NCBI GenBank assembly: GCA_903879705.1
Contig: CAIRMO010000054.1
Location: 1-47,324 of the forward strand
Origin: an uncultured Candidatus Competibacteraceae bacterium
Lineage (GTDB): Bacteria > Pseudomonadota > Gammaproteobacteria > Competibacterales > Competibacteraceae
DNA: 47,324 bases
Direction: 5' to 3'
The notes under the pieces are model-generated. The model made no database searches and was not told the DNA's origin. It was given only the letters and a program-made list of their open reading frames with translations. Both the position numbers and the translations under genes were made by a program. Shown here in pieces: positions 780 through 28,794 of the stretch; position 1 is the first letter of the stretch; every line of letters begins with the position of its first letter.

Positions 780-887
780 ATGGATGCCCTTTATAGCAGG
801 GTAATACAAGACCCCGATGCTCAAATTTACGCTCCCAACCTTCCTTCACACTCCCAACCTTCCTTCATGTACCTCCCGCGACCATGA
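780..887 (+). CDS. short ORF (35 aa) overlapping the DUF5682 gene start
   Basis: A short frame begins ATGGATGCC at 780, behind a good ribosome site (AGGAG at 769-773, spacing 6). It ends in an ATGA overlap with the next gene's start at 884. The downstream gene has no clear ribosome site of its own, so this ORF may act as a coupling leader. It contains a 17-bp sequence duplicated with 19-bp period (832-848 and 851-867). The peptide matches no family I know. It may equally be the rewritten edge of a gene lost when the mobile elements accumulated just upstream. Confidence 0.3.
   Translation: MDALYSRVIQDPDAQIYAPNLPSHSQPSFMYLPRP
832..867 (+). repeat. two-copy 19-bp-period tandem repeat
   Basis: CTCCCAACCTTCCTTCA occurs at 832-848 and again at 851-867, separated by CA. 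It lies directly upstream of the DUF5682 gene and within the short ORF at 780-887. Confidence 0.8.
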
Positions 888-3187
888 GCATACAAACCGC
901 GACTGACAAGGTTCATCTGTTTGGCATCCGCCACCACGGCCCTGGCTGTGCCCGGAGTCTGGTTCGGGCGCTGGAAGCCTTGCAGCCGGACTGTGTTCTC
1001 ATCGAAGGTCCGCCCGAAGCCGACAGTCTGGTGGCGTTGGTGAGCGCAGAGGACATGGTGCCGCCGGTGGCGTTATTGCTGTATGCCCCGGACGAACCGC
1101 AACGCGCCGCGTTCTACCCGTTCGCCGAGTTCTCGCCGGAATGGCAGGCGATGCGTTATGCCACGCAAACCGGGGTTCCGGTCCGGTTCATGGATTTGCC
1201 GCAAACCCACGCGCTGGCGCTGGAAAAGGAGCGCGAGCCGGTGGAGCTGGTCCCGGCTAACGATCTGGCTAAGGGGACCGAAACAGCGATCATGGACAAC
1301 GATCCCCGGTTGCGTTATGACCCGCTCGGCTGGCTGGGACGGGCCGCCGGCTATGGCGACGGCGAGGAATGGTGGGAACACACGGTTGAACAGCGTCAGG
1401 ACAGCGCGGAACTGTTTACCGCTATCGCCGAGGCGATGACCGCGGTGCGGGCTGAAACCCCACCGTTGACCGATCCGTTCCGGGCGCGGCGCGAGGCATT
1501 GCGTGAGGCGTACATGCGGAAAACTATCCGGGCGGCGCGAAAGGAAGGCCGGGAGCGGATCGCGGTGGTGTGCGGCGCATGGCATGTCCCGGCGCTGGCC
1601 CAGATGCTGGGCGTCGGCACGGATAATGACCTGCTCAAGGGCTTGCCGAAACTGAAAGTCGAAGCGACCTGGATTCCGTGGACGTATGACCGGCTGGCGG
1701 CGGAAAGCGGCTACGGGGCGGGAGTCGATTCGCCGGCCTGGTATGAGCATCTGTGGCGGCGCGGCGGACGGGCAGATCCGGCGGCCTGGTTCGCACGAGT
1801 TGCCCGGCTGTTGCGCGAGGCCGAAATCGACTGCTCATCGGCCCATCTGATCGAATGTGTGCGACTAGCGGAAACTCTGGCAGCCGTGCGTAACCGACCG
1901 GGGCCGGGTTTGACCGACCTGTTGGAAGCAGCCAGTACGATTCTTACGACCGGCGAAGATGCGCCCTTGCGCCTGATTCGCCGCGAACTGATCATCGGTC
2001 GCCGGCTCGGTCAAGTCGCCTCCGGGACTCCGACCGTCCCCTTGCAGCGCGATCTGGAGCGGCGTTGCAAAACCCTCCGTCTCACCCTCAGCCCCACCCG
2101 TGAACCCCTCGAACTGGATTTGCGAAAAGAGAATGATCTCGTTCGCAGCCAATTCCTGTACCGGGTGCGACTGCTGCGGATTCCGTGGGGCGAAGTGACT
2201 CAGGCCCGGAGTGGCAAAGGCACTTTCCGCGAGATCTGGGCGTTGCAGTGGCAACCGGAATTCGCGTTGACGGTGATTGAAGCCGCTCTTTACGGTAATA
2301 CGGTCGCGGAGGCAGCGGCAGCGCTGGCCCGGCGCACCGCGATTGAAGCCCGCGATTTGCCCGCACTGACGGAACTGGTTAGCCAACTGCTGCTGGCCGA
2401 TCTACCCGCCGCGCTGGCTGACGCCATGCAGGAACTGGAAAATCGTGCGGCATTGACCGGCGACCTTTCGCAATTGATGGCCGCGATTCTGCCGCTGGCG
2501 CAGGTTTCCCGCTACGGCGATGTCCGCCAGACCGATGCCGCTCAGGTGCTGCATGTTCTCGATAGTCTGATCGTGCGGGTGTGCATTGGGCTGGGAGTCG
2601 CCTGCCAGGCGCTGGATGACGAGGCCGCCGCCAGCATGGCCGGACGGATCAACCGCCTGCATACCGCGATCAAGCTGGTGGATCGGCCAGAGCATCTTGA
2701 CGACTGGTTGACTGCGCTGCGACAGATCGCCGACGCCGGCAGCGTCCATCATCAAGTACAGGGCCGCGCCGCCCGGTTGCTGTTTGATGAACGCCACGGG
2801 GATGCCGGGGATACCGCCGACCGGATGAGCCGCGCCCTGAGCCGGGCGGTTTCGCCGGAAGCCGCCGCTGCCTGGCTGGAAGGCTTTCTCAGCGACGGCG
2901 GGATGATCCTGGCCCACGATGACGCGCTGTTCCGGTTGCTGGATCAATGGGTGATCGGGCTGAGCGCCGACCATTTCACCCAGGCATTGCCGCTGGTGCG
3001 CCGCACCTTTGCGACCTTCCCGTGGCCGGCGCGCCGCCAGATCGGTGCGCGGGTTCAACGCGGTGCGAGCCGCGAACCGGCATTACGAGCGGGAGCTGTA
3101 GCGGAGGATCACTGGAATCTGGCCCGCGCCGAGGCGCTGATTCCAACCTTGAGTCTGATTCTGGGCATCGGAGCGAAAACTGAATGA
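884..3187 (+). CDS. DUF5682 family protein, MoxR/vWA-associated, TIKI/TraB-like N-terminus
   Basis: A large cytoplasmic protein of 767 aa with no signal peptide or membrane segments. The N-terminal LFGIRHHGPG (G14 to G21) is the hallmark I associate with DUF5682. Three elements line up with the metal-dependent TIKI/TraB/EreA-type fold: GIRH (14-17), a following strand with a glutamate in LIEGPP (E41), and GAWH (231-234). The rest is long, Leu/Ala-rich and probably helical. Its stop overlaps the start of the vWA gene (ATGA), so the two are one operon. From memory, such proteins are usually encoded beside a MoxR-type AAA+ ATPase, which is absent here because mobile DNA ends just upstream. The biochemical activity is unknown and the hydrolase suggestion is inference. 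Confidence 0.8.
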   Translation: MSIQTATDKVHLFGIRHHGPGCARSLVRALEALQPDCVLIEGPPEADSLVALVSAEDMVPPVALLLYAPDEPQRAAFYPFAEFSPEWQAMRYATQTGVPVRFMDLPQTHALALEKEREPVELVPANDLAKGTETAIMDNDPRLRYDPLGWLGRAAGYGDGEEWWEHTVEQRQDSAELFTAIAEAMTAVRAETPPLTDPFRARREALREAYMRKTIRAARKEGRERIAVVCGAWHVPALAQMLGVGTDNDLLKGLPKLKVEATWIPWTYDRLAAESGYGAGVDSPAWYEHLWRRGGRADPAAWFARVARLLREAEIDCSSAHLIECVRLAETLAAVRNRPGPGLTDLLEAASTILTTGEDAPLRLIRRELIIGRRLGQVASGTPTVPLQRDLERRCKTLRLTLSPTREPLELDLRKENDLVRSQFLYRVRLLRIPWGEVTQARSGKGTFREIWALQWQPEFALTVIEAALYGNTVAEAAAALARRTAIEARDLPALTELVSQLLLADLPAALADAMQELENRAALTGDLSQLMAAILPLAQVSRYGDVRQTDAAQVLHVLDSLIVRVCIGLGVACQALDDEAAASMAGRINRLHTAIKLVDRPEHLDDWLTALRQIADAGSVHHQVQGRAARLLFDERHGDAGDTADRMSRALSRAVSPEAAAAWLEGFLSDGGMILAHDDALFRLLDQWVIGLSADHFTQALPLVRRTFATFPWPARRQIGARVQRGASREPALRAGAVAEDHWNLARAEALIPTLSLILGIGAKTE

Positions 3188-4392
3188 ATCCAGCCCATCC
3201 CCTTTCCTCATCAGAACGGTTGCGTCGCTGGCGGTTGGTACTGGGTGGCGCTGCCGCCGATGGAACCGGCTGTGCGCTGACCGGTGCCGACCTTGAAATC
3301 GACCGGGCGCTGGCTTCGCTCTATGACGTGGGTCTGGAAGGCGGCGCTGATCTGGCGAAAACCGGTCAACGCAATGGCGGTTCCGGGCTATCACAACCCG
3401 GCGTCGCCCGCTGGTTGGGCGACATCCGCAAGTATTTCCCCAGTACGGTGGTGCGGGTGCTGCAAAAGGACGCGCTGGAACGGCTGAAGTTGCACCAGTT
3501 ATTGCTGGAGCCGGAACTGCTGGAAGCGGTCGAACCGGACGTGCATCTGGTGGCCACGCTGCTGGCGTTGCGCGGTGTCATCCCGGCATCTACCCGGGAA
3601 ACAGCGCGGATCGTGGTGCGCAAGGTGGTGGACGAGCTGATGCGCCGCTTGCAGGAACCGTTACGGTCGGCGGTCAGCGGGGCGCTGAACCGTGCTGAAC
3701 GCAACCGCCGCCCCCGGTTCGCCGAGATGGACTGGCCGCGCACCATCCGCGCCAATCTGCGCCACTATCAGGCGGAGTATCAAACCATTATCCCGGAAAC
3801 CCGAATCGGCTTTGGCCGGAAACGGCAACGCACTCAGCGGCAAGTGATCCTCTGCATTGATCAGAGCGGTTCGATGGCGGCGTCAGTCGTCTATTCAAGT
3901 ATTTGCGGCGCGGTGATGGCTTCGTTGCCGGCGGTCAAAACCCATCTGGTGGTGTTTGATACGGCGGTGGTTGACCTGACCGAACAGCTTGATGATCCGG
4001 TGGAATTGCTGTTCGGGACCCAACTGGGCGGCGGCACCGATATCAATCGGGCGGTCGGCTATTGCCAGAGCCTGATCCAGGATCCGGCCAATACCATCCT
4101 GGTGCTGATTTCCGACCTGTTTGAAGGCGGGGTGGCGGAAAACTTGCTGCGTCGCGCCAACGATTTGGTGCAAAGCGGTGTCCAGTTTATCGCGCTGCTG
4201 GCGCTGGCGGACAGCGGCGCTCCGGCCTATGACCGCGACCTCGCCGCCCGGCTAGCCATGCTGGATGTTCCCAGCTTCGCCTGCACTCCTGATTTGTTCC
4301 CTGACCTGATGGCCGCTGCGATTAAGCGAGAGGACATTAATCAATGGGCGGCGCGGCATGAATTGGCGACTGCTCGGCCAGCCAGAGTTTAA
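3184..4392 (+). CDS. vWA domain protein (CoxE-like, MIDAS motif)
   Basis: A 402-aa soluble protein whose C-terminal half is a von Willebrand factor A domain with a complete metal-ion-dependent adhesion site: DQSGS (D226 to S230), T285 in GGGTDIN, and D311 in LISDLFEGG. The N-terminal half (about residues 1-215) is helical and basic towards the end. In MoxR-vWA systems the vWA protein works with an AAA+ ATPase to remodel or load metal into a target; that role here is inferred from family and neighbourhood. The start codon overlaps the upstream stop by ATGA, indicating translational coupling. The gene converges with the HIT-family gene, 27 bp away. Confidence 0.85.
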   Translation: MNPAHPLSSSERLRRWRLVLGGAAADGTGCALTGADLEIDRALASLYDVGLEGGADLAKTGQRNGGSGLSQPGVARWLGDIRKYFPSTVVRVLQKDALERLKLHQLLLEPELLEAVEPDVHLVATLLALRGVIPASTRETARIVVRKVVDELMRRLQEPLRSAVSGALNRAERNRRPRFAEMDWPRTIRANLRHYQAEYQTIIPETRIGFGRKRQRTQRQVILCIDQSGSMAASVVYSSICGAVMASLPAVKTHLVVFDTAVVDLTEQLDDPVELLFGTQLGGGTDINRAVGYCQSLIQDPANTILVLISDLFEGGVAENLLRRANDLVQSGVQFIALLALADSGAPAYDRDLAARLAMLDVPSFACTPDLFPDLMAAAIKREDINQWAARHELATARPARV

Positions 4393-7044: not shown

Positions 7045-7887
7045 ATGCAATTGAATAAAATCAGCGGGATGGCTCTAGGGAGCCTGCTAGCGCTGAGCGG
7101 TCAGGCGCTGGCGGCCGGGGTGCCTGAGAAGGAGACATCGCCGGATCCGAATAAAATCGTCCAGCGGATGTGCGATTACCTGAAATCCCTGGATCGGTTT
7201 TCCTTCCGCGCCGAGATCACCGACGATCAGGTCTACACCGGGGGCAAGAAACTCCAGTACGCCTTTGAAACCGAGACCTTTGTGCAGCGGCCCGATAAGC
7301 TGCGGGTCAACGCCGAAGGTGACTTGGTCAAAAAGCAGTTCTTCCTTGAGGGCAGGACCTTGACCCTGTATGACCCGGCGGACAAGGTTTATGCCACCGT
7401 CGAGGTTCCCGCCGATATCGAAGGCGCGTTGGCGAAAGCGGATCAGGAGCTGAAATTCCGGGTAGCTCTTGCTGATCTGGCCAGCCCGAAACTGTGCGAA
7501 CACCTGGCCAAGGGCCAGACTCATGCTCTGTATGTCGGTTCGAGCAAGGTGCGGGGAGTTACCACTGATCATCTGGCTTTTGACCGGAACGACATCCAGT
7601 TTCAACTCTGGATTGCCCTTGGCGAAAAACCGGTACCGGTGAAAATCCTGATCAACCAGAAAAACCTTCCAGCTGCTCCGCAATGGACGGCCTACGTCCG
7701 CGATTGGAATAACGCACCCCAGCTAAAGCCCGGAACCTTTGCCTTTACCGCGCCGACCGGGGTGCAGAAGATCAAGTTCGTGTCGCCGCCTGCGCCGGTA
7801 TCGGCTCCCGCTGCGGCACAACTGAAACCCGTACAGCCTGTCGCAGAACCTGCTGCTCAGCCTGCCAAGACCGGAGAAAAACCATGA
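7045..7887 (+). CDS. exported DUF2092-type protein (LolA-like fold)
   Basis: A 280-aa secreted protein. A signal peptide covers residues 1 to about 23, ending ALA-A. Next comes a domain of about 200 residues resembling DUF2092 proteins, which share the LolA/LppX-like half-barrel of lipid-binding periplasmic proteins. Recognisable pieces are DPNKIVQRMCDYLKSLDRFSF near the mature start and a central TLTLYDPADKVYATV strand pair. The last 40 residues are a Pro/Ala-rich tail. The start at 7045 has GAGGAG seven bases upstream; the longer frame from 6994 would bury the signal peptide. Its stop overlaps the next start (ATGA), so it is coupled to the glycine-rich protein. Ligand unknown. Confidence 0.7.
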   Translation: MQLNKISGMALGSLLALSGQALAAGVPEKETSPDPNKIVQRMCDYLKSLDRFSFRAEITDDQVYTGGKKLQYAFETETFVQRPDKLRVNAEGDLVKKQFFLEGRTLTLYDPADKVYATVEVPADIEGALAKADQELKFRVALADLASPKLCEHLAKGQTHALYVGSSKVRGVTTDHLAFDRNDIQFQLWIALGEKPVPVKILINQKNLPAAPQWTAYVRDWNNAPQLKPGTFAFTAPTGVQKIKFVSPPAPVSAPAAAQLKPVQPVAEPAAQPAKTGEKP

Positions 7888-8540
7888 AGACTCTCAATGG
7901 CAAGATAGGGCATGGCGCAGTGCTGGTCGTGGCGGCAGTGAGCTTGGCCGGATTGGGACCGCTGGTGCTGGCCCGAGGTTTCGGTGGAGGTGGGGGCGGC
8001 TTTCATGGCGGTGGGGGCGATTTCCACGACAATGGGTTTAGCGGCGGCAGCGTTCGGGACAGCGGTAGCAGCTTCCACGATGGCGGCTATAGCGGCGGCA
8101 CCTTCAAGGACGGCGGCGGCTATGCTGAAGGACCTCGTGGTAGTGGCGCGGTGGTGGCTCCGGATGGTGCTGCTGTCGCTCGCGGTCCCGACGGCGGAGT
8201 TGCTGCTCGCGGTCCGGGTGGCGATTATGTTGCCCGTGGCCCGGATGGTGGCGTAGTGGCGGGCGGCCCCAATCACAACAACTATAATTACAACAATTCC
8301 AATTACTACGGCGGGGGTGGCGACGGGGGCAGTTACTACGGCGGTCCCGGTTGGGGCGGCGCAGTTGCGGCGGGTGCAGTCGCCGGGTTGGCAGTTGGTG
8401 CAATGATAGCGACCTTGCCGGTCGCGGCTACACCCATCATCGTGGCTAATCAGACCTACTACTCTGATGGCGATATTTATTATCAGCCTTGCTATCAGGG
8501 CGCGGCGGTCAATTACTGCGTGGTTGCTAACCCGTATTAG
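7884..8540 (+). CDS. exported glycine-rich protein
   Basis: A 218-aa protein with a signal peptide (about residues 1-30, ending near VLA-R). Its first half is very Gly-rich (FGGGGGGFHGGGG and GGxxxDGG steps), with later near-repeats of ARGPDGGV. After an Asn/Tyr-rich linker (YNYNNSNYYGGGG) comes a hydrophobic Gly/Ala segment (about 150-180) that may be a membrane-associated or glycine-zipper stretch. The end has YYSDGDIYYQPCYQG, a tyrosine-rich motif seen in DUF6515-like surface proteins. It overlaps the upstream DUF2092-type gene by ATGA, so both are made together, probably as envelope components. Function is not established. Confidence 0.65.
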   Translation: MKTLNGKIGHGAVLVVAAVSLAGLGPLVLARGFGGGGGGFHGGGGDFHDNGFSGGSVRDSGSSFHDGGYSGGTFKDGGGYAEGPRGSGAVVAPDGAAVARGPDGGVAARGPGGDYVARGPDGGVVAGGPNHNNYNYNNSNYYGGGGDGGSYYGGPGWGGAVAAGAVAGLAVGAMIATLPVAATPIIVANQTYYSDGDIYYQPCYQGAAVNYCVVANPY

Positions 8541-8661
8541 CATCGCCTATTTTCTTTTGGGCGGCTAACGTCCATTCAATCCGGGGCAATGCCGAGTATT
8601 GCAGGATCGTACCTGCCCTGTTCTGAAATCAAGCGATCCTCGGGTCGCAGCGCATTTTTCG

Positions 8662-8690
8662 AACCCGTCCCCACCCGACGGGTTTATTTT
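8662..8690 (+). terminator. candidate intrinsic terminator
   Basis: AACCCGTC and GACGGGTT form an 8-bp stem around a 7-base loop, followed by TATTTT. It would end the DUF2092/glycine-rich transcript 120 bp after its last stop. Confidence 0.5.
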
Positions 8691-8903
8691 CAGGCGCAAA
8701 AACCCGTGAATGTTTGGTTCCAAGCGTTCTACAATGGCTTCGCCCCGGACGGCGGTTTCGACTGGAGCTTATGTCTGTCGGTGAAGTTGCTGTCCTCAAA
8801 GTAACCGCGCTTGCAAGTCAGGAGCGCCAAGCAGCGGCCCAGGGTCATCGGTCGTTGTGTGGCATTACTAAAGATGACCATCATTCTGTATCGAGGTAAT
8901 AAC

Positions 8904-9404
8904 ATGAAATTTTTCCGCACATTGGGTGCCGTGTTGGTGTTGTCGTTGGGCGCGATGCTCGCCCATGCTCAGGGATGGGAGAATGAAAGCTTTCCGACGG
9001 GTCCGGGCCAACCGGAGCTGAAATACCACCTGCTGGTGCCGGCGGGCATCATCATCACCAACAAGAAAGGTGTCGCGTTCAAGGGCGGCGATGTAGTGGT
9101 AGTCCCCGGAAAAAACGTCACGGTGCTGAAATCCGCCTATGTCCAAGAGCATATGAAGGATACGGCTTTCCAATCCAGTTTTGTCAACGAGCAGGATAAT
9201 GCCGGAATGTCGGAGGAGAAGGTCCGTGATTACGCTATTGTCTCGGTGACAGTGCCCGAAGGTGTGACTGTCCAGGGTCATGGCAAGACCATCAAAGGCC
9301 CATCGAAGGTCACGCTGATGGTCACGAACAAGGGTTCAAAGGCGACGCCTGATAAGACGCCTGGCCCGATGTGGGACTCTACTGGTGGTTGGAATAACGA
9401 ATAA
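8904..9404 (+). CDS. small exported protein, function unknown
   Basis: A 166-aa protein with a clear signal peptide (MKFFRTLGAVLVLSLGAMLA, cleavage near AHA-Q at 23). The mature part is about 143 residues, rich in Val, Lys and Gly with alternating strands such as ITNKKGVAFKGGDVVVV and GVTVQGHGKTIKGPSKVTL, suggesting a beta-sandwich or solenoid. No cysteines appear in the mature part. I do not recognise the family. ATG at 8904 follows GAGG with suitable spacing and places the signal peptide at the N-terminus. A TTG at 8811 in the same frame is rejected. A strong terminator follows. Confidence 0.65.
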   Translation: MKFFRTLGAVLVLSLGAMLAHAQGWENESFPTGPGQPELKYHLLVPAGIIITNKKGVAFKGGDVVVVPGKNVTVLKSAYVQEHMKDTAFQSSFVNEQDNAGMSEEKVRDYAIVSVTVPEGVTVQGHGKTIKGPSKVTLMVTNKGSKATPDKTPGPMWDSTGGWNNE

Positions 9405-23814: not shown

Positions 23815-24288
23815 TCACGCCACCTTGGCGAACGCCTCAATCACTTCAGGTGGGGCCTGGATCAGTTCGATCAGCACGCCCTCGCCAGACAGCGGCGTCG
23901 CGTCGTTGCCCTTGGGATGGATGAAACAGACCTCGTAGCCGGCTGCGCCCTTGCGAATCCCGCCAGGGGTAAAGCGCATCCCCTGTACAGTCAGCCATTC
24001 CACCGCCACCGCCAAATCATCGATCCACAGCCCAATATGATTAAGTTGTGGCTCATGCACCTTGGGGGCCTTGCCCGGATCGATCGGCTGCATCAAATCC
24101 ACTTCCACCTTGAACGGCCCGGAGCCAATGGCGGCGATATCCTCGTCCACATTCTCCCGCTCGCTGCGAAAATTGCCGGTCAGGGTCAGGCCCAAGGTGT
24201 CGATCCACAACCGGCTGAGCCTGGACTTGTCCAGCCCGCCGATGGCGATTTGCTGGATGCCCAGCACGTTGAAGGGTCGGTTTACCAC
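23815..24288 (-). CDS. VOC-family protein, probable methylmalonyl-CoA epimerase
   Basis: A 157-aa vicinal-oxygen-chelate protein with two beta-alpha-beta modules. Its position, divergent from mutA-mutB, suggests (2R)/(2S)-methylmalonyl-CoA epimerisation. LNHIGLW supplies a ligand histidine (H84) and GVLIELIQ a ligand glutamate near 144, as in known epimerases. The first ligand is odd: where epimerases have His (as in DHVA), this reads Q13 in QQIAI, and the usual Gln/Glu of the second strand reads D64 in VDLMQP. The alignment is mine, by eye. It could therefore be a related VOC enzyme with a different activity. Start at 24288 follows AGGAGG. Confidence 0.6.
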
Positions 24289-24420
24289 GAAAAACCTCCT
24301 GAATAGTCAGATAACGGTGCGAATTGAAGAAGGCAATAGCGCCTTTATTGAGTATGTCATTCAAGCCCATGATTGCAACCATAGCCCTGCTGAGCGCCGG
24401 GAATCAGGCCAATCTTCAGT

Positions 24421-24426
24421 TATACT
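24421..24426 (+). promoter_or_regulatory. candidate -10 element for mutAB
   Basis: TATACT at 24421-24426, 50 bp before the mutA start. No good -35 lies at the expected distance, so it may need an activator or be coincidental. Confidence 0.3.
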
Positions 24427-24475
24427 TTCCCGGTACCGTCAACTCACTGTGTTTCGGTTCCTTCGGAGGATGTGC

Positions 24476-26617
24476 ATGGCTAATCAATCCCTGATCGACG
24501 CGGCAATCCCGACGTTCGACGAATTTCCCCCCGTTTCTTACGCCGACTGGCGCAAGGCCGCTGAAAAAGCCCTCAAGGGCGCATCGTTCGAGAAGCGGCT
24601 GATCACTAAAACCTACGAAAACATCGATCTGCAACCGATCTACCGGCAGGAGAATCTGGACGGTCTGCCACATCTGAACGGCCTGCCCGGCTTTGCGCCC
24701 TATGTGCGGAGTACGACGCCACTCGGTTTTGTCGCCCAAAGCTGGGATGTCGCCCAGGAAATCACCTACGGAACCCCGGCAGCGTTCAACGCGGCGTTGC
24801 GCTCTGATCTGGAGCGCGGCCAAACCGCAATCAATCTGGTGCTGGATCATCCGACCTTGCATGGGGTGGATGCCGATCAGGCCGATGCGGATGAAGTCGG
24901 CAAAGGCGGCCTGTCGGTCTCCAGTGTCGCTGATCTGGCTCAGGCGCTGGCCGGGGTTGATCTCGAAACCACCCCGATCTACGTCCAAGCCAACACCAGC
25001 GCCCTGAGTTTCACCGCGCTGCTGGCGGCACTGGTGCAACAGCAGGGCCAGTCGCTGGCTAAACTGCGCGGCGCGATGGGGATGGATCCGCTCGGCCACC
25101 TGGCGTGCTACGGGCATCTGCCCCGCGATCTGGCCGGTGTTTATGACGCTATGGCGCAACTGACCGGCTGGGCGACGACCAACGCCCCGCAGTTGCAAAC
25201 TATCACTGTCCAGGGTCACCCCTACCACAATGGCGGCGCGTCTACCACTCAGGAACTGGCCTTTGCGCTGGCGACCGCGGTGGAGTATCTGCGGACCCTG
25301 CAGGCGCATGGCCTGAGCATTGACGACACCGCGCCTCGCATCCGCTTCTCGCTGTCAGTCGGCTCCAATTTCTTCATGGAAATCGCCCGGCTGCGGGCTG
25401 CGCGAGTCCTGTGGGCCAAGATCGTCGCGGCATTTGGCGGCAACGCGGAGGCGCAGAAGATGCGCGTTCACGCCCGTACCTCGGCCTGGAACCAGACCTT
25501 GTGCGACGCACACGTCAATCTGTTGCGCGGCACCACTGAAGCCTTTTCGGCGGTGGTCGGCGGCTGCGACAGCCTGCACGTTTCGCCGTTTGACGAACCG
25601 GTTCGGACCCCGGATGAATTTTCCCGTCGCATCGCCCGCAATACCCACATCGTCTTGCGCGAAGAAAGCAATCTGGCCCGCACCGTCGATCCGGCCGGCG
25701 GTTCCTGGTATGTCGAAACCTTGACCGATGCGATTGCCCGCCAAACCTGGGCGCTGTTCCAGGAAGTGGAAAAGCAGGGCGGCATGGCTAAGGCGCTGGA
25801 AGCCGGTTGGCCGCAGAGGCAAGTCGCCGATACCGCTGCGCAACGGGCGGTCAACATCGCCAAGCGCAAGGATATTTTCGTCGGGACCAACATGTACCCG
25901 AACCCGAAAGAAACGTGGCTGGAAGCGCCGATGGTTGACGCGACGGCCATCAAGACAGAACGGGCAGCCGCATTGGCAATTTGCCGGGCCGTTGCCGATG
26001 CCGGCAAGAAGCAGGCGGCACTGGCGCAATTGGCCCAAAGCGGCAAGCCGGTCGATGCGGCGATTCAGGCGGCGCTGGCCGGTGCGACTCTCGGCGAGAT
26101 TGCCCGGGCAGCGCGAACGAGCGCCCAGCCCGGCCCCACGATCAACCCGATTTGCGCCCAGCGCGGCACGGTGCCGTTTGAGCGGTTGCGGGCAGCCGCG
26201 AACGCCTTCGCAACCCGCACTGGCCAACGCCCGCAGGTGTTCCTCGCCACCATGGGGCCGCTGGCCCAGCACAAGGGCCGCGCCGATTTCGCGACCGCGT
26301 TCCTGGGGGTGGGCGGGTTTGAGGCGGTTTATCCCCTTGGTTTTGATAGTACCGACGAAGCAGCCGAAGTCGCGCTGGCCTCAGGGGCAAAGGCTGTGGT
26401 GATTTGCTCTACCGACGCAACCTATCCCGAACTGGTCCCGCCACTGGCCCAAAAGCTCAAACAGGCCAATCCCGGCCTGACCGTGTTGCTGGCCGGTTAC
26501 CCGATCGATCAGCTTGACGCTTTCAAAGCTGCCGGCGTTGATGACTTCATTCATGTGAATGCCAATTGCCAGGCATTGCTGTCCACTCTGCAACAAAAAA
26601 TGGGGATCACCCAATGA
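24476..26617 (+). CDS. mutA: methylmalonyl-CoA mutase small (beta) subunit
   Basis: A 713-aa small subunit of the adenosylcobalamin-dependent mutase that interconverts succinyl-CoA and (R)-methylmalonyl-CoA. It has the TIM-barrel substrate domain ([15 protein letters not shown] early; [21 protein letters not shown] near 290-310) and a Rossmann-like C-terminal domain. That domain lacks the DxHxxG cobalamin motif, reading [13 protein letters not shown] instead, as expected for the non-catalytic subunit. ATG at 24476 has GGAGGA five bases before; the frame open from 24062 upstream is rejected. It overlaps mutB by ATGA. The route serves propionate assimilation or, run in reverse, propionyl-CoA supply for hydroxyvalerate polymers. 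Confidence 0.93.
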
Positions 26618-28794
26618 GTCAGTCGCCCGATTTCACCACGATGGCCTATGACCTGGACTTCCCCAAGCCCAGCTTTGCGGAATGGCAGGCGGCAGTAGAA
26701 AAATCCACCGGCAAGACGCTGGAGCAACTGGTTTCAGCCACGATGGAGCTAATTGATGTCAAGCCGCTGTATACCCAGGAAGACCTCAAGGGTTTAAAAC
26801 ATCTGGGTTATACCGCTGGAGTGCCGCCGTTCCTGCGCGGCCCGTATCCGACGATGTATGTAGCTCAACCGTGGACGGTGCGCCAGTACGCCGGGTTTTC
26901 TACGGCTGAGGAAAGCAATGCTTTTTATCGCCGCAATCTGGCTGCCGGGCAAAAAGGTCTGTCCATTGCCTTTGATTTGGCCACCCATCGCGGCTACGAC
27001 TCCGATCATCCTCGGGTAGTGGGCGATGTCGGCAAAGCCGGGGTGGCGATTGACTCGATTCTGGATATGGAAATCCTGTTTAACAGCATCCCGCTGAATC
27101 AAATGTCGGTGTCCATGACCATGAACGGTGCGGTGTTGCCGGTCTTGGCTTTTTACATTGTCGCCGCTGAAGAACAGGGCGTTCCACACGATAAACTTAC
27201 CGGCACCATTCAGAATGACATTCTGAAAGAATACATGGTGCGCAATACCTACATTTACCCGCCCGATCCGTCCATTCGGATTATCGGCGATATCTTCTCC
27301 TACACCTCCAGGGAAATGCCGAAGTTCAACAGTATTTCGATCTCCGGCTATCACATGCAGGAAGCCGGCGCGACTGCCGATCTGGAACTCGGTTATACCT
27401 TGGCCGATGGACTGGAATATGTCCGCACCGGCATCAATGCCGGGATGGATATTGATGTATTTGCCCCCCGCCTGTCTTTCTTCTGGGCGATTGGGATGAA
27501 CTACTTCATGGAAGTCGCCAAGATGCGGGCCGGGCGACTGCTGTGGGCGAAAATCATCAAGCAGTTCAACCCGAAAAATGAAAAGTCAATGGCGTTGCGA
27601 ACCCACAGCCAGACTTCGGGCTGGAGTCTGACCGAACAAGATCCGTTCAATAACGTCGCCCGCACCTGCATTGAAGCTATGGCGGCGGCTTTGGGCCATA
27701 CCCAGTCCTTGCACACCAATGCGCTGGATGAAGCGATTGCCCTGCCGACCGACTTTTCAGCCCGGATTGCGCGTAATACCCAGCTTTATTTGCAGGATGA
27801 AACCGGCATTTGCAAAGTCATTGATCCGTGGGGTGGTTCCTACTTTGTCGAGGCGCTGACCAATGAACTGGTCAAGCGGGCCTGGGGCCACATTCAGGAA
27901 GTGGAAAGTCTCGGCGGCATGACCAAGGCGATTGAAACCGGCCTGCCCAAGATGCGGATCGAAGAAGCGGCAGCGCGACGGCAAGCACATATTGACTGCG
28001 GACGGGAAACCATCGTTGGCGTCAACAAGTACCGGATGGACAAAGAAGATCCGCTGGATATTCTCAGCATCGACAACACCGCGGTGCGCGAGGCGCAAGT
28101 GCAGCGACTCCACAAGCTGCGGGCCAACCGGGATGAAGCCGAGGTTAAAGCCTGTCTGGCGGCCATCACTGAAGCCGCTCAAGCCGGCACGGGCAATCTG
28201 CTGGAGAAGGCGGTCGAAGCCGCTCGCGCCCGCGCCAGTCTCGGCGAAATCTCCGATGCGATGGAGAAGATATTCGGGCGGCACAAGGCGATTATTCGGG
28301 CTATTTCCGGGGTGTACAGCAGCGAGTTTAGCGATGTCCAGGAAATCGCCAAGGTGCGACAGATGGCGGACGATTTCGAGCAGCATGAAGGTCGTCGCCC
28401 CCGCATTCTGGTCGCCAAGCTCGGTCAGGATGGCCATGACCGGGGTGCCAAGGTGATTGCCACCGCCTTTGCCGATCTTGGCTTCGACGTGGACATCGGC
28501 GCGTTATTCCAGACCCCGGAAGAAGTGGCCCGGCAGGCCGTGGAAAATGATGTCCATGTGGTCGGGATGAGTTCGCTGGCTGCCGGGCATAAAACCCTGT
28601 TGCCGCAACTGATCGGGGAACTGAAAAAACTGGGCCGCGAGGACATCATGGTGGTCATCGGCGGCGTGATTCCCGCCCAGGACTACGAGTTCCTTAAAGC
28701 CAATGGCGCGGCGGCAATCTTTGGTCCCGGCACCGTCATTCCGGTTGCTGCCCAGAAGGTGATTATGGAGTTGAACGAACGACTGGCGGCATGA
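26614..28794 (+). CDS. mutB: methylmalonyl-CoA mutase large (alpha) subunit
   Basis: A 726-aa catalytic subunit with a substrate-binding TIM barrel ([33 protein letters not shown]) and a C-terminal B12 domain. The lower-axial cobalt ligand is H608 in DGHDRG (D606-x-H-x-x-G611), followed by the GADIG-like and GGVIP segments of the cobalamin fold. ATG at 26614 overlaps the mutA stop, ensuring a 1:1 ratio. The chaperone gene meaB/argK, often next door, is not in this window. Possible terminators lie at 28813-28846 and 29018-29058. Confidence 0.96.

Follow-up and report, generated by a model that had tools for sequence, protein, structure and literature searches.

A predicted TIKI-superfamily domain at the N terminus of DUF5682 proteins, including E. 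coli YehM, encoded beside MoxR and vWA genes

The window analyzed here, a stretch of 47,324 nucleotides from an uncultured Candidatus Competibacteraceae bacterium (contig CAIRMO010000054.1, assembly GCA_903879705.1), carries on its + strand at 884-3187 the gene for a 767-amino-acid DUF5682 protein (PF18934; 882 bits, E 3.4e-265, with the Pfam match covering residues 28-760). Pfam titles DUF5682 a 'family of unknown function'; E. coli YehM belongs to the same family, and yehM carries the DUF5682 annotation in a plasmid record. Our analysis suggests a two-part protein, in which the first ~300 residues would form a TIKI domain and the remainder would be mostly helical and repeat-like. The N-terminal domain (residues 1-296; 884-1771, + strand) is predicted to adopt the TIKI/TraB/ChaN/Ere fold, and we consider its homology to the TIKI superfamily close to certain. 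The C-terminal region (residues 297-767; 1772-3184, + strand) is predicted to be mostly helical, with three short strands between residues 407 and 454. In structure comparison its resemblance to helical-repeat proteins was moderate, with Z no higher than 8.7, which is under the level that the tool advises for helical repeats. The DUF5682 protein of Streptomyces (locus L169, 4944-8711) has ~1255 residues, ~490 more than the window protein.

The TIKI superfamily is defined by two GxxH motifs and a glutamate. Passages of a paper on the toxin RRSP support this definition (PMC6254334). The original prediction had placed the DUF5682 N terminus in a TIKI/TraB/EreA-type superfamily on the strength of GIRH (residues 14-17), a strand followed by E41, and GAWH (residues 231-234), and all three lie exactly there in the protein. 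GIRH (923-934, + strand) stands at the end of strand 10-15 of the predicted model and pairs with the GTxH of TraB/PrgY proteins; E41 (1004-1006, + strand) directly follows strand 37-40 and pairs with the TraB glutamate; GAWH (1574-1585, + strand) follows strand 226-231. R207-E208 (1502-1507, + strand) lie in helix 198-220, and R207 pairs with the arginine of 'RDxxMA' or 'RN' in TraB/PrgY. The superfamily residue set (H17, E41, R207, and H234, all but R207 at strand ends) thus appears intact, and in the predicted model the strand-end positions fit one shared pocket. Two further invariant features are S84-P85-E86 (1133-1141, + strand), outside the conserved columns of the TraB set, and D104 (1193-1195, + strand), which in profile alignments pairs with an aspartate of the proteins that we label PrgY-like in the present analysis.

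As a bare pattern this arrangement is common. A loose version of it (G..H, 20-32 residues, E, 120-250 residues, G..H) occurred in 53 of 505 other open reading frames (ORFs) of at least 300 amino acids outside the DUF5682 cluster, a mechanically compiled collection with antisense shadow ORFs among its entries. Shuffling residues 1-300 of the window protein 5000 times produced the pattern in 88 cases. Motif rarity was therefore discarded as proof of relationship, and the case rests on conservation and fold. Conservation was assessed by aligning 104 members of DUF5682 (the window protein, 12 from further genomes, 80 from genome contigs, and 11 from records of plasmids or phage collections), which come from many phyla according to their record titles, share from 22% identity upward with the window protein, and include E. 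coli YehM. E41, R207, E208, G231, and H234 were invariant in all 104, and so were residues that the original prediction had not named: S84, P85, E86, D104, E169, and R189, besides R207 and E208. H17 was present in 103 of 104; the sole exception, a gap in L004, is an extraction artifact: a separate extraction of that protein shows GIRHH. H17, E41, and H234, which had been proposed for mutation, are thus kept across the DUF5682 proteins examined, YehM included. Around H17, R16 was found in 103 and H18 in 102 of 104; position 14 was looser (G in 97, P in 6, one gap), and position 15, two before H17, was I in 84 and V in 19 (one gap), with no glutamate of the kind seen in RRSP. In a smaller alignment, A1 (13 members, the N terminus of L008 being truncated), the invariant charged or histidine residues up to position 300 were E41, E86, D104, E169, R189, R207, E208, and H234; beyond it they were D412, E450, and R706. 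At the level of sequence, this conservation, unlike the bare motif, is strong evidence above chance.

The predicted structure points the same way. An AlphaFold2 model of the full-length protein had a mean predicted local distance difference test (pLDDT) score of 87.9; because Foldseek searches with it returned mostly helical-repeat proteins, residues 1-296 were folded separately (pLDDT 86.3, predicted template modeling score [pTM] 0.87). Judged by its structural matches, the resulting model has the central parallel beta-sheet and flanking helices of the TIKI/TraB/ChaN/Ere core. It was matched to solved structures with VIA-align, which re-scores Foldseek's own candidates and for which a Z below 8 can reflect a common arrangement; 14 entries exceeded Z 5, and every one of them belonged to the TIKI superfamily. 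The top chains (7w5z_E, 8bqs_DQ, and 8b6h_DQ; Z 10.2 to 9.6) carry the PDB name 'TraB family protein', and the best, 7w5z_E (Z 10.2), aligned over 192 residues at 4.4 Å. They were followed by ChaN in fourth place (2g5g, titled 'Cofacial heme binding to ChaN', Z 8.3), HopBA1 (Z 7.7), 2qgm, which we take to be an Ere-like protein, together with two EreC and two BcR135 entries (Z 7.1 to 6.6), PMT entries (Z 6.3 and 6.2), and RRSP entries (Z 6.1 and 5.3), of which 6a7h, titled only 'Bacterial protein toxins', was recognized through its residue numbers. The first protein from outside the superfamily, a methyltransferase, ranked 15th with Z 4.9. A figure legend in PMC10060162 agrees with the TraB naming of the top chains, and passages of PMC6254334 group PMT, HopBA1, Bcr135, and ChaN in the TIKI superfamily. 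In a viral structure library, the sole match at E of 0.001 or below was a TraB family protein (E 1.6e-5). Since one superfamily occupies the whole top of the VIA-align list, we find the fold assignment convincing; the N-terminal domain matched this core above all else, as the original prediction had proposed.

Profile comparisons with hhalign place the domain more narrowly. The N-domain profile of DUF5682 (74 sequences) matched nine PrgY-like TraB proteins at 87.2% (E 3.9e-6, 241 columns), in an alignment that paired all four landmarks, namely, both GxxH motifs, the glutamate, and the arginine. The YehM branch alone (14 proteins with 22-29% identity to the window protein) gave 88.4% (E 2.8e-6) against the same proteins and likewise paired all four; these E values come from single comparisons and are not library-calibrated. 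TraB ranked first for the DUF5682 query in both local and global runs, and the global alignment with the PF01963 set placed R207 on the TraB arginine and GAWH on the last TraB GxxH. The TraB glutamate paired with E41 was conserved in 24 of 24 members of that set. None of the control profiles (eight other protein families and three sets of antisense ORFs) scored above 0.7% with the main profile or above 1.7% with the branch profiles, and reversed profiles reached 3.2% at most. The ordinary-family controls were MoxR, vWA, SWIM, DUF5691, and clusters 7, 8, 9, and 13; clusters 4, 5, and 6 run antisense to operon genes (21 of 21, 12 of 13, and 10 of 10 members) and so serve as random-like controls rather than real families. 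The hhalign sets comprised 24 TraB, 15 Ere, 25 ChaN, and 9 PrgY-like proteins, a few of which (L111, L132, and L158) are possibly wrong ORF picks. Alignments A2 and A3 held the window and 61 of 80 loci, the other 19 having been excluded as close duplicates or, for L085, for a wrong frame; A4 held 21 of 25 TraB loci and A5 17 of 25 ChaN loci.

By these sequence comparisons, DUF5682 is nearest the TraB/PrgY branch of the superfamily and not EreA; the original placement stands at the level of the superfamily. DUF5682 shares with TraB/PrgY/GumN (PF01963) the fold, both GxxH motifs, the glutamate, and the arginine of RDxxMA or RN before the last motif. However, the first motif is GTxH in TraB/PrgY and [GP][IV]RH in DUF5682, and DUF5682 has in addition the invariant S84-P85-E86, E169, and R189, a 470-residue extension, and a MoxR-vWA operon. 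ChaN (PF04187) is alike in fold, but its conserved GExH is missing from DUF5682, and its profile scored 8.8% with the YehM branch and lower still with the main profile. The erythromycin esterases (PF05139; EreC 6xcq and Bcr135 3b55, Z 6.6 to 7.1) are also alike in fold and differ in giving almost no profile signal with DUF5682; the same Ere profile scored 86.7% against the ChaN profile. The C-terminal domains of RRSP, HopBA1, and PMT share the fold as well (Z 5.3 to 7.7). According to passages of PMC6254334, RRSP is a metal-independent TIKI endopeptidase with the same order of His, Glu, and His as DUF5682, and PMT is a superfamily member without the 2His/2Glu motif. In the 2His/2Glu motif of RRSP a glutamate stands two before the first histidine, whereas DUF5682 has I or V there. 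DUF5682 is best regarded as a distinct family of the superfamily, outside both PF01963 and the erythromycin esterases.

Besides the commonness of the loose motif, several results weigh against this placement or against a catalytic reading of it. Foldseek alone returned no PDB match at E of 0.001 or below for the N-terminal domain (best 7.2e-3). The main DUF5682 profile reached only 64% against the 24 PF01963 proteins, a weaker version of the comparison that still set GIRH and E41 on the TraB GTxH and glutamate, and alignment-tool versions of the TraB comparison gave 38% and 2.8%. The close branch scored 46% against the PF01963 TraB set, 64% over 71 columns only against the PrgY-like proteins, and 72% against the merged set; the YehM branch scored 7% against the PF01963 set and 28% against the merged set. 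With the main profile, ChaN gave 1.5% and Ere 0.1%, the latter from a shallow 15-sequence alignment with some doubtful ORF picks. The Pfam cutoff for PF01963 was not reached: the window protein went unlisted, and of 13 DUF5682 members a single one matched the TraB model of Pfam, at E 0.25. Lastly, the fold relatives include a heme-binding protein (ChaN) and one without the catalytic motif (PMT). In sequence searches against solved structures, the whole protein found no match, the N-domain profile found weak matches to unrelated proteins only, the TraB profile A4 found mainly designed helical proteins and did not return the TraB subunit, and a single PrgY-like protein reached that subunit only at E 1.9, although the PDB name of the subunit helped to identify it.

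DUF5682 genes have recurring partners. In the window, the start codon of a vWA gene of the VWA_CoxE family (3184-4392, + strand; PF05762, E 3e-51) overlaps the DUF5682 stop codon, and the end of a transposase-type ORF with an rve_3 integrase core (1-405, + strand; PF13683, E 6.2e-15) occupies the site where most other loci have MoxR. Across three sets of loci, those with at least 1.3 kb of sequence on the relevant side being testable, a MoxR gene preceded DUF5682 in the same orientation in 72 of 77, 12 of 12, and 11 of 11 loci, no more than 400 bases away in 65, 11, and 11 of these; downstream, a vWA gene was present in 70 of 73, 10 of 11, and 11 of 11 loci, and it lay at most 1.3 kb from the best match in 68, 10, and 9. 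Among the 71 loci of the first set with at least 4.5 kb upstream, DUF5691 was found in 66 and SWIM in 65. In E. coli (L162, 570-11391), yehL (MoxR ATPase), yehM (DUF5682), and yehP (vWA) are followed by yehQ (SWIM); yehI (DUF4132) lies upstream of yehL, and the stretch shown has no annotated DUF5691. In two Rhizobiaceae plasmids, of Agrobacterium and Sinorhizobium (L164, 4959-12169; L170, 4950-12151), a DUF4132 gene separates DUF5682 from vWA. We regard these as the same system in two layouts, SWIM-DUF5691-MoxR-DUF5682-vWA and layouts with DUF4132, and it corresponds to the YehL-type MoxR-vWA systems. Passages of PMC3893208 name the YehL subfamily and describe YehL as one of two MoxR proteins in E. 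coli K-12. A PADLOC search gave no match for DUF5682, vWA, SWIM, or DUF5691 and a weak IetA match for MoxR. MoxR, DUF5682, and vWA matches also occur together on L168 (MT835988.1), a 14.2-kb unverified 'Bacteriophage sp.' fecal scaffold that is possibly mislabeled bacterial DNA.

In the window genome the operon is split across two contigs. Similarity to an intact relative, L020, starts at window base 879, and DUF5691 and MoxR lie on another contig (C82, 6804-9403, with MoxR at 8324-9400), where their similarity ends at base 9404, beside the MoxR stop. The DUF5682 and vWA frames stay open despite the split. The close relatives L015 and L016 had no MoxR match in ~7 kb upstream. On C82 an Hsp70-like gene adjoins DUF5691, and a further neighbor is one that we take to be MurJ. 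Hsp70 was rejected as a member of the system, since a search of 103 other loci at E 1e-10 found no counterpart of this gene. Elsewhere in the window, two neighboring methylmalonyl-CoA mutase genes (24062-28794), of which only the second matched a B12-binding domain, fit a pair of small and large subunits, and a glycine-rich, low-complexity ORF of 218 amino acids on the + strand (7857-8543) faces one of similar length (228 amino acids) on the opposite strand.

What the domain does is a separate question from its ancestry. The fold alone settles neither hydrolase activity nor metal dependence, because ChaN binds heme and PMT lacks the catalytic motif, and the metal dependence that the original prediction had attached to the hydrolase should not be asserted, since RRSP is described as metal independent. 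That prediction had also set an enzyme against a scaffold; this contrast is too sharp, since the ~470 mostly helical, repeat-like residues could be the scaffold part, and YehM may do chemistry besides holding its partners together. We lean slightly toward the view that a TIKI-superfamily domain does chemistry within a MoxR-vWA operon, and we see the chances of hydrolysis as evenly balanced. Computation backs the predicted TIKI fold, the residue conservation, the mostly helical C-terminal part, and the recurring MoxR and vWA partners. Building on these, the N-terminal domain would be a hydrolase (a peptidase, amidase, or esterase), the helical part would dock a target or partner, and MoxR and vWA would remodel or present the target or open the active site, resulting in ATP-controlled cleavage. 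In its most specific form, an undescribed ATP-gated hydrolase that has YehM/DUF5682 for its catalytic subunit and in which a MoxR-vWA motor feeds a TIKI/TraB-type peptidase, this proposal is tentative and, taken as a whole, unlikely.

Cofactor handling is the chief rival. The N-terminal domain might keep the TIKI fold and its His/Glu pocket to bind a metal or cofactor instead of hydrolyzing and, with MoxR-vWA, load that cofactor into a target enzyme much as NorQ-NorD does, a reading that we consider rather unlikely. It draws on the heme-binding ChaN, which has the same fold and is the fourth structural match, and on the vWA partner, which belongs to a CoxE-like Pfam family; PMC13036017 describes metal insertion enabled by NorQ-NorD, and PMC3893208 a need for CoxD in metal cluster assembly. 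However, the DUF5682 sequence lies nearer to TraB/PrgY than to ChaN, and the recurring neighbors in the loci examined, SWIM and DUF5691, or DUF4132, proteins, include no known cofactor enzyme, sequence farther away not having been searched. Alternatively, the protein could be a pseudoenzyme, with the TIKI fold serving as a structural or recognition module in what is mainly a scaffold joining MoxR, vWA, and a target. The large, mostly helical, repeat-like region would suit such a role, and PMT, as described in PMC6254334, offers a precedent within the superfamily, but E41, R207, E208, H234, S84, E86, D104, E169, and R189 do not vary among the 104 proteins, at identities down to 22%, and H17 varies only by the extraction gap. 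This absence of drift at some ten charged or polar positions disfavors a pseudoenzyme, which we judge improbable. The commonness of the loose pattern, the weak Foldseek E values, and some weak profile comparisons might speak for a motif that arose by chance on an alpha/beta fold of other descent. We find this hardly credible, as one superfamily holds every place in the structure ranking above the first drop, and all four signature residues are aligned to PrgY-like proteins both by the family as a whole and by the divergent YehM branch, whereas the controls do not show this.

In the literature searched, which lay outside subscription papers, the word 'DUF5682' was found in no paper, and no paper was found that links DUF5682 or YehM to TIKI/TraB, UniProt, InterPro, and Pfam clan notes also lying outside the search. 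Passages of a copper-evolution study list yehM among mutated genes, a link too thin to use. Placing the YehM N-terminal domain with TIKI/TraB proteins indicates which residues to mutate and for what kind of chemistry or cofactor binding to assay. If the placement is true, the TIKI superfamily gains one more family, and its fold becomes linked to an AAA+ machine. Should the protein prove to be an ATP-gated hydrolase, its logic would be comparable to that of the AAA+ proteases, with an unrelated active site, in E. coli and in many phyla. The question of whether YehM is an enzyme can now be addressed directly in E. coli K-12.

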